Positions 12,276 through 21,002 of a DNA stretch of 34,129 nucleotides are shown here, one piece after another. How positions within the stretch are numbered: the first letter of the stretch is position 1; each line of letters starts with the position of its first letter. A model generated the notes under the pieces. That model searched no databases and was not told where the DNA came from. It was given only the letters and a program-made list of their open reading frames with translations. The DNA lies in the IMG/VR virus record IMGVR_UViG_3300031566_000210, positions 1 through 34,129 of that record. The stretch is one strand, 5' to 3'. The stretch is from a virus. The translations under genes and the position numbers were made by a program.

Positions 12276-12425
12276 TTAGTGCTGCGAGTATGCAGCGATT
12301 GGTTGAAGAAGTAAAGATAGTATTTTATCTAGGTTCGCTAAGACTAGGGCAGAAAGCAGGAAGCCCAGAGAAATCAGGCACAGGTCTGAGATAGCGAATA
12401 AGATTCTTTGCTTGATGTTGTTCAT
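12276..12425 (-). CDS. First gene of leftward operon: small membrane protein (49 aa)
   Basis: ATG 12425 follows AAAGGAGAAACT; the longer in-frame start at 12536 (GTG) would run through a large inverted repeat and is rejected. Residues about 9-40 are hydrophobic (FAISDLCLISLGFLLSALVL, LSLLLQPIAA), enough for one long or two short membrane helices. Early, abundant membrane peptides in phages are often superinfection-exclusion or host-takeover factors; nothing specific can be claimed. Confidence 0.65.
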   Translation of the reverse strand: MNNIKQRILFAISDLCLISLGFLLSALVLANLDKILSLLLQPIAAYSQH

Positions 12426-12463
12426 AGTTTCTCCTTTATTATGTGATCCCGCAAATGACAGAC

Positions 12464-12518
12464 GATGCGCAAAGTCAAGGCCGCGAAGCGCCGAAGGGAA
12501 GCCTTGACTGGGCGCATC
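12464..12518. repeat. Large inverted repeat in the divergent control region
   Basis: Arms GATGCGC-aa-AGTCAAGGC (12464-12481) and GCCTTGACT-gg-GCGCATC (12501-12518) match in 16 of 18 positions around a 19-base loop. It lies between the first leftward gene and the rightward small terminase gene. Each arm carries TTGACT on one strand, so it could hold divergent -35 boxes, or act as operator or RNA hairpin. Confidence 0.7.
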
Positions 12519-12551
12519 GACTGGCATAGCGGACACAGTTTCTTTCGGACT

Positions 12552-12595
12552 GTAACATTACGTTACTTGACAGGGGCCATGATAAGCGTGGTAAA
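12552..12595 (+). promoter_or_regulatory. Candidate rightward promoter with palindromic operator before the small terminase gene
   Basis: A perfect palindrome GTAAC-attac-GTTAC (12552-12566) directly precedes TTGACA (12567-12572), an ideal -35 box; 17 bases later is GGTAAA (12590-12595), a weak -10. The TerS gene starts 39 bases further on. The layout suggests a repressible or activated late promoter; the weak -10 leaves doubt. Confidence 0.45.
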
Positions 12596-12634
12596 TGGGG
12601 GGAGAGAGGGAGAGGGGGGCTTCTGGAGGCGCAT

Positions 12635-13012
12635 ATGAAGACCATTGGACAACAGAAGTTGACTGCAAAACAGATGGCGTTGGTTGATCATCTTGTAGCA
12701 ACGGGTGAACCACTGGCTAGGGCCGCTGAGGCTGCTGGATACGCAGCGGGCGAGAGCGGTAGAGTCACTGCCAGCAAGACGATCAGGCTTCCGCACGTGC
12801 AGGTATACATGATGCAGCGGGTGACAGAGACACTCGGACTCAACGCTACGGTAGCGGCAGCGAAGGTATTGCACTTGGCCTCAGGTGCTAAGAGTGAGTA
12901 TGTCCAGCTAGAGGCAGCGAAGGACATACTAGATCGGGCAGGGTTCAAGCCAATCGACCGAAGCCAAGTGCAGGTAGCTGGTGACATCAGGGTCAGCATA
13001 GACTTGTCATAG
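12635..13012 (+). CDS. terS: Terminase small subunit (125 aa)
   Basis: ATG 12635 follows GGAGGCGCAT. Residues 8-60 (KLTAKQMALVDHLVATGEPL, ARAAEAAGYAAGESGRVTAS) match the N-terminal DNA-binding HTH of small terminases, in which LT-KQ-A-V and AA--AGY are typical. The middle helices (GLNATVAAAKVLHLASGAKS, QLEAAKDILDRAGFKP) resemble the oligomerisation core, and the C-terminal strands (DIRVSIDL) the TerL-contacting part. It selects phage DNA for packaging. TerL lies 1.9 kb downstream, an unusually large gap. Confidence 0.82.
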   Translation: MKTIGQQKLTAKQMALVDHLVATGEPLARAAEAAGYAAGESGRVTASKTIRLPHVQVYMMQRVTETLGLNATVAAAKVLHLASGAKSEYVQLEAAKDILDRAGFKPIDRSQVQVAGDIRVSIDLS

Positions 13013-13118
13013 GTTTTTTTAACCAACAACATAAGACTTTTTTTTCAGCCAGCCTGAACAACGGGATCACGCCCCGCGCAAAACCACTATCACCCCTGCG
13101 CCGGATGTTGAGGTCGAG

Positions 13119-13140
13119 GGAGGGGTTGCCCCCCCCCTCC
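13119..13140. repeat. GC-rich hairpin between convergent genes
   Basis: GGAGGGG (13119-13125) and CCCCTCC (13134-13140) form a short hairpin between the small terminase and the convergent gene ending at 13147. There is no T-run directly after it on either strand, so terminator activity is uncertain. T-runs without a good stem occur at 13013-13019 and 13038-13045. Confidence 0.35.
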
Positions 13141-13146
13141 TTGGTG

Positions 13147-13635
13147 TTAGGCGCTGCGCCGCTTCAGCATGGCCAGTCGGTCGGCGGGGGTGGCGATGCG
13201 GGCGGTCGGTGTCTGCTTCTCGAAGTCGCCGGGGTTATACTTCGATCCGGTCACTGCCTCGAATGCCAGGCGAGAGGCGTCCCGCATGGCCAGCGCGGCG
13301 TAGTAGTTCTCCTCTGCCTCGTTGCGGTCGCGCCGCTTGTAGGCAAGGCGGGTCGGGTCTGCGCTGGGGTTCTCTTCCAGAAGGACTAGCTCTGCCTCCA
13401 CGCGGTCTAGGCGCGTCTTGCTGCTGCTGGCTTCGTAGTCTGACTGACGGCAGAAGCCATAGCCCATCAGTCCCTTGCGGCGATACTCGGACGGGCCGAA
13501 TGCGTAGGCTAGGACCATGTAGGCCTCTACCGCGTCCTTCTGGATGTCGGCATAGGCCCCGGCGGTCCCGCTGATGCGCGGGGTGTGGGCTTCGGTCTGC
13601 TCAAGTGCTTTGGTGTCGGTCTTGGTGCGTGCCAT
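13147..13635 (-). CDS. GC-rich hypothetical protein, oriented against the packaging genes (162 aa)
   Basis: ATG 13635 has AAGGAG eight bases upstream and is preferred to an ATG at 13692. The protein is Ala/Arg/Glu-rich and mainly helical (TRLDRVEAELVLLEENPSAD, RDRNEAEENYYAALAMRDAS), with one Cys and a Pro/Thr-rich C-terminus. No domain is recognised. It is the only leftward gene right of the control region, is clearly richer in GC than its neighbours and has operator-like repeats upstream at 13702-13732. That combination suggests an independently regulated, acquired gene (moron). Confidence 0.75.
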   Translation of the reverse strand: MARTKTDTKALEQTEAHTPRISGTAGAYADIQKDAVEAYMVLAYAFGPSEYRRKGLMGYGFCRQSDYEASSSKTRLDRVEAELVLLEENPSADPTRLAYKRRDRNEAEENYYAALAMRDASRLAFEAVTGSKYNPGDFEKQTPTARIATPADRLAMLKRRSA

Positions 13636-13701
13636 GATGGTTCTCCTTGTCACAGCGTTGGCGGGCGGATTGCCCCATAGAAACGTTAGCATCTCTGGTT
13701 G

Positions 13702-13732
13702 GTATAGGTGAACCTATCCTGAAGTATAGGTG
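13702..13732. promoter_or_regulatory. Operator-like repeats upstream of the isolated leftward gene
   Basis: GTATAGGTG occurs at 13702-13710 and again at 13724-13732, 22 bp apart (two helical turns). The first copy also forms the palindrome ATAGGT-GA-ACCTAT (13704-13717). The group lies 67-97 bases upstream of the ATG at 13635. A further palindrome, ATAGTT-gtttg-AACTAT, lies at 13778-13794. Confidence 0.5.
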
Positions 13733-14139
13733 CGTTCTGGATTCTGCCCTTTCTTCTATTCTCAGCATTTACTTGGCATAGTTGTTTGAACTATAGACCC
13801 CCGCAGGCCTCGGCACCGAACGATCTGCAACAACAATCCGCGCAGCCCCCAGTCGAGCTTAGACAAAGGCAGCAGCAAGAGCCGCCCTACGAGCTACGAG
13901 AGGATTGTTGTTGAAGAGCGGGCGGAGCCGTGGCAGCGGGTGTGGGGCTGGGTGATAGGGTGGTGTGGTGGCTGCGCCGGATTGGGTCTTGCTATACGAA
14001 GGGGGGTGGGGGAAAACCGAGGGCCTCTGGTCCGCTATAGGACCACCACTCGTATTTTTTCCCACCAAGGTTCATCAATTAGTGCGTTGCCCCTGAAAAT
14101 ATTTTGGGCGTAAAAAGGTTCGTGTATCAGGAGGCGAGG
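13733..14139. other. GC-rich non-coding stretch with several inverted repeats
   Basis: No credible gene is seen on either strand. It contains ATAGTT/AACTAT (13778-13794), a perfect 12-bp inverted repeat CAACAACAATCC (13828-13839) with GGATTGTTGTTG (13902-13913), GGTGGG (14005-14010) with CCCACC (14061-14066), and TGGTCC-gctata-GGACCA (14028-14045). Lying between the terminase subunit genes, it is a candidate packaging-recognition or regulatory region; no tRNA fold was recognised. Confidence 0.55.
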
Positions 14140-14253
14140 ATGTATAAGCTCAGTGAGAATGCCGAGAAAGCGCCGAAACCAGACAGTGAAGCGACTGCTC
14201 GTGCGAAGAAAGCTATCAAGGGTGCGACCAATGGCAATACCGCCGGGGGTTAA
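14140..14253 (+). CDS. Very small hypothetical protein (37 aa)
   Basis: ATG 14140 is directly preceded by GGAGGCGAGG, a strong ribosome binding site, and the frame encodes MYKLSENAEKAPKPDSEATA and a basic KKAIKGATNG tail before TAA. Its end overlaps the next gene by 23 bases. It is hydrophilic and probably unfolded or helical; it opens the late gene run leading to TerL. Function unknown. Confidence 0.6.
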   Translation: MYKLSENAEKAPKPDSEATARAKKAIKGATNGNTAGG

Positions 14254-14527
14254 AAGCAAGATGGTTCGTGCTGGTCTTCGTGGCATTAACAAGCCGCAGG
14301 GACTGAGAGATAGCACCTCCAAGTCACATCATGTGATGGCTCACTCTGGTGGTGAGTATAAGTATATCAAGTTTGGTGACGAGAGCGCGACGACTGCTGG
14401 CGCACCGAAGGCGAATGAATCCGAGGCAATGAAAGCAAAGCGTCGAGCCTTTAAGGCGCGTCACGCCAAGAACATTGCCAAGGGTAAAATGAGCGCAGCC
14501 TATTGGGCTGACAAAGTTAAATGGTAA
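14231..14527 (+). CDS. Conserved basic phage protein before TerL (98 aa)
   Basis: ATG 14231 is preceded by AGGG; another ATG lies at 14261. The protein reads VRAGLRGINKPQG in its N-terminal part, SHHVMAHSGGEYKYIKFGD centrally, and ends with AMKAKRRAFKARHAKNIAKG then KMSAAYWADKVKW. This strongly basic C-terminus is a pattern I associate with small proteins near the packaging genes of marine podoviruses. It likely binds DNA or another virion protein; no tested function known to me. Confidence 0.75.
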   Translation: MAIPPGVKSKMVRAGLRGINKPQGLRDSTSKSHHVMAHSGGEYKYIKFGDESATTAGAPKANESEAMKAKRRAFKARHAKNIAKGKMSAAYWADKVKW

Positions 14528-14536
14528 GGATCAGAT

Positions 14537-19828: not shown

Positions 19829-19907
19829 GAGGCCCGCAAGGACACCCTCGCCGAAGTGCCAGAATGGATACCCGTCACAGCTTTAACCTCAACAAAGGAC
19901 TCTTGAA

Positions 19908-20717
19908 ATGGCTAATACGATTGACCAAGCCTTCATCAAGCAGTTTGAAACCGAGGTTCACCTTGCCTATCAGCGTATGGGTTCCAAAATCCGGAACACT
20001 GTCCGCACTAGCAACGTGACGGGTTCGACTGCTCGATTCCAGAAGATCGGCACTGGTGCCGCTTCGACCAAATCGCGTAACGGCAACGTAACCGCAATGG
20101 AACTGGCGCACACCTACGCCGAAGTTACCATGGCTGACTACTATGCTGCCGAATACATCGACAAACTGGATGAACTGAAGATCAACATCAACGAGCGTCA
20201 GGCCGTTGCTCAGTCGGCTGCTGCTGCCCTTGGCCGCAAAACCGACGAGCTTCTGACCACCGCTATGGACGCTGGTGCTAACGGCACTCAGATCGCTGAC
20301 ACTTCCGGCGCTCTGGTAAAGGCTGATCTTCTCACCCTGTTCCAAACCTTTGGCACTGCCGACATTCCGGAAGACGGACAGCGTTACCTCGCCATGTCGC
20401 CCGCTGGCTTTGCCGATCTCTTCAACATCACCGAGTTTGCTTCGTCGGATTATGTTGGCCCGCAGAACCTCCCGTTCGCTGGCGGCATGACCATGAAAGA
20501 GTTTCTCGGCTTCAAGATTTACTCGACCTCGGCTGTTGCTGGCGGCAAGAACTTTGCCTACCACACCTCGGCTGTTGGCCTCGGCGTGAATGCTGATGTT
20601 TCGACTGAGATTAACTACGTTGCGGAAAAAGTTTCGCACCTTGCAACTTCGATGATGTCGATGGGCGCTGTTGTTATTGATAGCAACGGTGTCTACGAAG
20701 TCCTCGACAACAACTAA
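19908..20717 (+). CDS. Major capsid protein (269 aa)
   Basis: The gene follows scaffold and gp13-like genes and has the strongest codon bias of the window (frequent gct, gcc, aac, ctc), as expected for the most abundant protein. The start MANTIDQAFIKQFETEVHLA, YQRMGSKIRNTVRT and ELAHTYAEVTMADYYAAEYI, KLDELKININERQ are typical of small HK97-fold capsids of podoviruses, and the C-terminal domain runs through LGFKIYSTSAVAGGKN. The ribosome binding site is AAAGGA. 79 bases without a gene precede it. Confidence 0.9.
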   Translation: MANTIDQAFIKQFETEVHLAYQRMGSKIRNTVRTSNVTGSTARFQKIGTGAASTKSRNGNVTAMELAHTYAEVTMADYYAAEYIDKLDELKININERQAVAQSAAAALGRKTDELLTTAMDAGANGTQIADTSGALVKADLLTLFQTFGTADIPEDGQRYLAMSPAGFADLFNITEFASSDYVGPQNLPFAGGMTMKEFLGFKIYSTSAVAGGKNFAYHTSAVGLGVNADVSTEINYVAEKVSHLATSMMSMGAVVIDSNGVYEVLDNN

Positions 20718-20732
20718 GGGAAGGATTGAATC

Positions 20733-21002
20733 ATGGCTTTTTCTGCTTCTGGTCTGACCCGCCTCGCTGGCGCTTCTGGTGTTTCGCTGTGGCACTACGC
20801 CACCACGGACGCCATCGCCACCGTCAACACTGCTGGCTACTTCAACGATGCCTCGGCTATGATGAGCGTCAACGACGTTATCATTGCTGTGACTTCGACG
20901 GCTGGCACTCCGGTCGTGAGCCACACCTATGTCAACGCCAACTCCTCCGGGACTGTTGATGTTGTCGATGGCGTGGCGATCACCAGCACCGACAGCGACT
21001 AA
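20733..21002 (+). CDS. Putative head decoration protein (89 aa)
   Basis: Follows the capsid gene by 15 bases with AAGGA as SD. Beta-rich sequence, with LAGASGVSLWHYATTDAIAT, then VNTAGYFNDASAMMSVNDVI and VDVVDGVAITSTDSD. The W-Y-TTDAIATV-TAGYF pattern is very common just behind phage capsid genes. Strong codon bias like the capsid suggests high expression. A role as decoration or stabilising protein is inferred from context. Confidence 0.78.
   Translation: MAFSASGLTRLAGASGVSLWHYATTDAIATVNTAGYFNDASAMMSVNDVIIAVTSTAGTPVVSHTYVNANSSGTVDVVDGVAITSTDSD

Follow-up and report, generated by a model that had tools for sequence, protein, structure and literature searches.

A leftward gene between the terminase genes of a marine phage is probably a re-sited member of a fast-evolving early gene family

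The window analyzed here, i.e., the complete 34,129-base record of a marine virus of bacteria, contains a leftward early cluster with genes for a RecE-like exonuclease, an Erf-like annealing protein, a replication initiator and a RusA-like resolvase, and T7-like late genes for TerS, TerL, a head-tail connector, a capsid assembly protein, a major head protein and tail proteins. ORF162 is located on the minus strand between TerS and TerL (Table 1). The first-pass annotation had described it as the only leftward gene of the late half, GC-richer than its flanks and preceded by a strong Shine-Dalgarno sequence, and all of this is borne out. The start codon is the ATG at 13635 on the minus strand, within a longer mechanically called ORF that extends to 13692, and the Shine-Dalgarno sequence is AAGGAG. 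Other long leftward ORFs of the late half, such as 19875-20924, are antisense to structural genes as judged by overlap. The GC content of ORF162 is 0.648 and its GC3 is 0.81, versus GC3 values of 0.37-0.67 for the 30 other ORFs measured. Two viral contigs, L002 and L003, encode proteins of 93% and 91% identity, respectively, at the same place. Third codon positions account for 42 of the 55 differences between ORF162 and its L002 counterpart and for 43 of the 60 differences from that of L003. As dN/dS ranges from 0.06 to 0.12 for the three pairs formed by the window, L002 and L003 (NG86 and YN00), ORF162 is a real gene under selection on its protein. Consensus scans, of a kind that misses other types of promoters and terminators, returned neither a promoter-like site just upstream of ORF162 nor a leftward terminator-like site directly after it.

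Table 1. Position of ORF162 and of the features surrounding it in the window.
Feature	Position	Strand	Basis or remark
Hydrophobic ORF of 49 aa where relatives have their head gene, membrane-like by eye	12276..12425	-	conserved in L002
Second inverted repeat, at the canonical head-gene site	12455..12527		27-nt arms, 85%; precedes the 49-aa ORF
Terminase small subunit (TerS), left neighbour of ORF162	12635..13012	+	its stop borders the inserted unit
Inserted unit, approximate extent	13013..14000		TerS stop to G-run element
ORF162, probable displaced member of the TerS-adjacent early head-gene family	13147..13635	-	predicted helical protein, 162 aa
Shine-Dalgarno AAGGAG of ORF162	13643..13648	-	read from sequence
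Operator-like element, two copies of GTATAGGTG and ATAGGT/ACCTAT palindrome	13702..13732		repeat search, comparison with L002 and L003
Long imperfect inverted repeat/hairpin	13807..13934		inverted-repeat search, folding, comparison of three sequences
G-run element (GGGGGGTGGGGGAAAA...), conserved, delimiting the inserted unit on its right	14001..14125	+	comparison with relatives

The relatives used for comparison were the best 80 of at least 599 stretches related by TerL plus the best 80 by TerS, and thus represent the most similar relatives and not a census; merging of identical TerS sequences reduced 127 loci to 111 distinct ones. In most of the listed relatives, an element with the order GGGGGGTGGGGGAAAA ... 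CACTCGTATTTTTTCC ... AATATTTT closely follows the 3' end of TerS. This G-run pattern was found in 85 of 95 distinct loci, with 10 giving no match, and its distance from TerS is at most 60 nt in 68 loci, 61-150 nt in 13, 151-600 nt in one and more than 600 nt in three (the value of 1200 nt scored for L156 is a pattern miss, a variant G-run being visible in its sequence). The element starts 988 nt after TerS in the window and 1038 nt after it in L002. Since it lies close to TerS in the relatives, the intervening stretch of the window is inserted. A count with all start codons in the 86 distinct listed loci that have both terminase genes showed SD-led leftward ORFs of 90 aa or more between TerS and TerL in the window and L002 alone, in both cases ORF162. 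The contig of L003 carries the ORF162 homologue at the same site and ends before TerL, so that it falls outside these 86. The site of ORF162 is therefore an insertion, occupied by a separately oriented unit with its own upstream region. The G-run element itself is a candidate packaging site (cos/pac). Just before TerS, the stretch 12552-12621 is matched by blastn in L002, L003 and 20 further relatives and could be a rightward promoter. Beyond the G-run element, about 80 bases (14446-14532, within the gene at 14153-14527) have matches of 75-88% identity in roseophages, SIO1, a cyanophage and a Vibrio phage, which is high for such distant phages.

Upstream of ORF162, the first-pass annotation had noted repeats two helical turns apart plus the ATAGGT/ACCTAT palindrome, and both are indeed present. 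The copies of GTATAGGTG lie at 13702-13710 and 13724-13732, i.e., 22 nt or about two turns from start to start, and the palindrome has 9-nt arms that match at 89%. Each is modestly unusual, because shuffling of the 160-nt upstream region yielded a 9-mer direct repeat within 30 nt in 7 of 500 cases and an equally good palindrome in 23 of 500. With up to one mismatch, GTATAGGTG occurs 10 times in the window versus 3.8 expected occurrences, and it is therefore not special to this site. The element is only partly conserved in the window, L002 and L003: all three keep the half-site ACCTATACTT, while L002 has lost the second GTATAGGTG repeat. The palindrome of L002 is a perfect 16-mer, CTATACTTAAGTATAG, and with up to three mismatches this 16-mer finds the palindrome site as its sole match in the window (0.02 expected).

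The strongest feature of the region upstream of ORF162 is absent from the earlier description. It is a hairpin with 33-nt arms (13807-13839/13902-13934), 172 nt from the ATG. In a scan of the window in steps of 25, no 150-mer was more stable for its GC content than the minus strand of 13801-13950; the minus strand of 13795-13960 folds with -79.5 kcal/mol (z -4.9) and its plus strand with -70.0 kcal/mol (z -2.5). Of 53 hairpin pairs followed through the window, L002 and L003, one has changed on both sides in a compensatory manner and none is broken. A 12-nt arm, TCAACAACAATC, is common to this hairpin and that of L024, whose ORF162-type gene is located left of TerS, which suggests that gene and hairpin travelled together; the link is loose, because three other loci with ORF162-type genes (L096, L105, L108) carry different hairpins. 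An integron attC site was considered for the hairpin and dropped as an explanation, as the hairpin lies 5' of the gene and the core motif is missing. In the window, L002 and L003, a boxA-like CGCTCTTCAACA is found inside the hairpin (position 13920 of the window, minus strand).

Who, then, are the kin of ORF162? A jackhmmer search with ORF162 against the 2,624 ORFs (80 aa or longer) of the listed loci returned 66 matches at an E value of 0.1 or better, all of which are leftward and, with the exception of those in the window, L002, L003 and L085 (the same contig as L003), lie left of TerS. At an E value of 0.001 or better, a family member is present in 56 distinct loci among the relatives listed; it is leftward in 56 of 56, left of TerS in 53 and right of it in three, namely the window, L002 and L003. 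The sequence left of TerS extends for 1,500 nt or more in 67 of the distinct listed loci, and 46 of these have a member, which holds the left position in 44, the other two being the window and L003. The remaining 21 loci gave no family match; in 16 of them an SD-led leftward ORF of 131-182 aa that scored below the threshold lies left of TerS. In the listed relatives, the usual place of the family is thus at the head of the leftward early cluster, directly left of TerS. Relatives lacking the gene had been raised in the first-pass annotation as a point to check: the insertion site is empty in them, but the family itself is widespread, in its usual place.

Further comparisons bear on the homology. 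Profile-profile comparison of two disjoint sub-alignments (9 and 22 sequences, one of them the ORF162-type set) gave 97% with an E value of 1e-10, versus at most 1% for 11 control families of 1 to 40 sequences. A reverse search starting from the member L074 yielded 62 matches with none outside the family. Against the homology, it reached L002 only at 0.0096 and L003 only at 0.0023 and did not recruit the copy of the window. Pairwise identity of ORF162 to members outside the clade of the window is 15-34%. The clearest common motif, (F/Y)E..TG..(W/Y).P, is located near the C-terminus, and its glycine is the sole column conserved at 90%. The folds predicted for ORF162 and L074 (pLDDT 83.7 and 86.6) are both helical with two long consecutive helices. 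These alignments and models place ORF162 in a divergent, fast-changing helical family. In the window, ORF162 was the sole member that the profile search detected.

Names for this family were not returned by any of the searches. At an E value of 1, tblastn of ORF162 against the collection of phages found no homologue, and none of 85 candidate stretches in the collection of genome contigs was confirmed. None of the families in Pfam, PHROG or PADLOC was matched by ORF162, and no single family of Pfam or PHROG was hit by more than two of 47 head-gene members; one member hit phrog_36962 (unknown function) at 3.4e-5 and other matches had E values of 0.00096 or weaker, while four PADLOC families were each matched by one or two of the 47 at E values of 0.001-0.007. 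Rfam gave no match at gathering scores, and a tRNA search found none. In a search of solved structures by sequence, the best E value for ORF162 was 0.077. Foldseek against PDB and BFVD gave no match at 0.001 or better, the nearest BFVD matches being unnamed phage proteins (0.0019 and 0.0049); P4 Psu (E 0.92) and T4 UvsY (E 1.0) also appeared in the lists. VIA-align 2 aligned ORF162 with an F-BAR protein (Z 10.8, 1.6 A over 80 residues) and a lengthened ROP variant (Z 10.7, 1.6 A over 81 residues) and the L074 model with Z values of up to 10.3, values that helical bundles can attain by chance. The earlier statement that there is no homology clue to function thus stands insofar as the homologues lack names, but not insofar as homologues exist.

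Structured upstream DNA is common among the head genes of the relatives. Their upstream regions have a median z of -2.6 (50 regions) versus -0.3 for 100 random segments of the same loci, and 64% of them beat all 12 shuffles versus 21% of the controls (p 1.6e-11; related sequences entered as independent data points, and control segments could also fall outside intergenic DNA). The upstream region of ORF162 itself has a z of -1.2 in the structure test with 120-nt segments, which are shorter than its hairpin. For the 200 nt before the ATG, z is below -2 in 41 of 55 leaders and -0.4 for the copy of the window. Two sets of five relatives have compensatory double changes in 11 of 65 and 12 of 60 hairpin pairs. 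At 24 and 19 of these pairs, respectively, one or more sequences of the set show a break or gap, and both sets have slightly unfavorable covariation terms (+0.68 and +0.76). Burial of the Shine-Dalgarno sequence was rejected as a general rule for the leaders: pairing of it more than 100 nt upstream has a probability above 0.5 in only 18 of 55 (0.36 in the window). At the canonical head-gene site of the window, the second inverted repeat has the apex GTCAAG that is also seen before head genes of several relatives. The extended apex GTCAAGG is common to this repeat and the head-gene hairpins of L028, L047 and L123, and those of L016 and L120 have GTCAAGT.

How are these findings best explained? 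The first-pass annotation had likened the gene to morons, which are often anti-defense, exclusion or host-fitness genes. On such a reading, ORF162 would be an accessory cassette with its own promoter that entered from outside the lineage. The opposite orientation, the deviant GC3 and a site occupied in just 2 of 86 distinct listed loci all speak for an inserted unit, and this part of the proposal holds. The gene, on the other hand, is kin to the early head gene of the group itself, and as the family is the usual head of the leftward early cluster (46 of 67 loci), the reading of ORF162 as an optional extra is not supported; moreover, no second member was found in the window. Composition is weak evidence of foreign origin, because head genes of the relatives also tend to have a higher GC3 than TerS (40 of 51, mean 0.51 versus 0.45), albeit a higher one than the next long early gene in only 16 of 27 cases; in none of the 51 is GC3 raised as far as in ORF162. 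Taken together, an unrelated moron appears unlikely. Whether the hairpin is a DNA element such as a replication origin or a terminase or nuclease site, with the nearby gene being incidental, is a related question. Of 52 head-gene upstream regions, only 20 have their best fold more stable on the strand of the mRNA, such that a role purely as RNA is not favored, and both a packaging gene and the G-run element adjoin. Furthermore, if TATACT within 13725-13730 marked the transcription start, the hairpin would be left outside the mRNA. Against an incidental DNA element stand the long-range pairing of the Shine-Dalgarno sequence in part of the leaders (18 of 55) and the presence of a hairpin upstream of the head gene in canonical and displaced arrangements alike, and we rate this explanation as rather doubtful.

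For the protein, an anti-defense or host-takeover function with rapid divergence driven by host targets has to be considered. The first-expressed genes of phages often target host factors, and the leading position of the relatives' copies in the early cluster, the low identity to members outside the clade of the window and the predicted helical fold are consistent with such a function. Conversely, ORF162 matches no PADLOC family and Foldseek gave no match for it at an E value of 0.001 or better; we consider this reading conceivable, if not the one to expect. A further candidate is an early regulator of the lambda N type, that is, the product of the first leftward gene would act on the structured leader of its own transcript. 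It would fit the position, the leader hairpin and the boxA-like sequence within it. ORF162 has only two arginines in its first 20 residues and no cluster of them (by eye), however, an arginine-rich N-terminus is also missing from the rows of the family alignment inspected, and YGCTCTTNA is present in just one other of 52 upstream regions (L089). This leaves the lambda N type as the least likely of the alternatives.

With homology, usual position, insertion, selection on the protein and paired structure upstream established, we consider it probable that ORF162 belongs to a core, fast-evolving family of early genes and was re-sited together with its control region. In the relatives, the family occupies the first place of the leftward early cluster beside TerS, for the most part preceded by a large hairpin. 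In the lineage of the window, ORF162, the operator-like element and the hairpin lie instead between TerS and the G-run element as a one-gene leftward unit, and the canonical site is now taken by the 49-aa ORF, which follows a different hairpin. What we infer is the function: early expression, use of the operator, mode of the hairpin and target of the protein. Early leftward transcription of ORF162 may start at a promoter of its own, a regulator may bind the palindrome, and the hairpin may act either in the leader RNA, by shielding or processing, or as a DNA site. The protein, a putative helical bundle, is most likely an early regulator or a host-takeover factor; an anti-defense role is conceivable. 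The first-pass annotation had thus recognized a real unit, for which the re-siting of a core early gene along with control elements is a better explanation than an unrelated moron. A bolder version, which we regard as improbable, is a portable self-regulating cassette in which each small helical phage protein is paired with its own large hairpin. The protein would recognize its hairpin as RNA or DNA and thereby time early expression, and the cassette would jump between the sides of TerS, exchanging early control for that of the late region.

Given at least 599 TerL-related stretches in viral contigs, this phage group is common in the collection, and yet no Pfam or PHROG family matches the head gene of its early cluster in more than two of 47 members. 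From the displaced copy, it seems that gene and upstream DNA work as a separable unit, which makes the action of hairpin and protein directly testable.

Three known systems invite comparison. Morons of lambdoid phages are single-gene units with their own upstream regions among late genes and of deviant composition, and ORF162 resembles them in all of these respects; it differs in stemming from the core family of the group, and the consensus scan picked up neither promoter nor terminator at its sides. Lambda N is the first gene of the leftward early operon, has a structured leader, in which the RNA effects shielding or processing, and differs greatly in sequence between relatives. The head-gene family is similar with regard to first leftward position (in the relatives), structured leader and strong divergence, and unlike it in that no arginine-rich motif and no family-wide boxA were seen and that ORF162 sits beyond TerS. 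The third system is the head gene, encoding the hypothetical protein WDQ27543.1, of Pelagibacter phage EXVC031P Hodr, for which no paper was found under the names Hodr or EXVC031P; we make no wider claim that family or hairpin are undescribed. In the record concerned (L084, OQ414635.1), which is named EXVC031P Hodr, the locus tags read EXVC032PBaldr. The Hodr protein joins the family weakly (E 8e-5), and a search starting from it recruited three ORFs, ORF162 not among them. It has 147 aa, a GC3 of 0.31 and 29% pairwise identity to ORF162 over 129 aligned residues. Like ORF162, its gene is leftward and located behind a long hairpin; unlike ORF162, which lies right of TerS, it is the first gene to the left of TerS.
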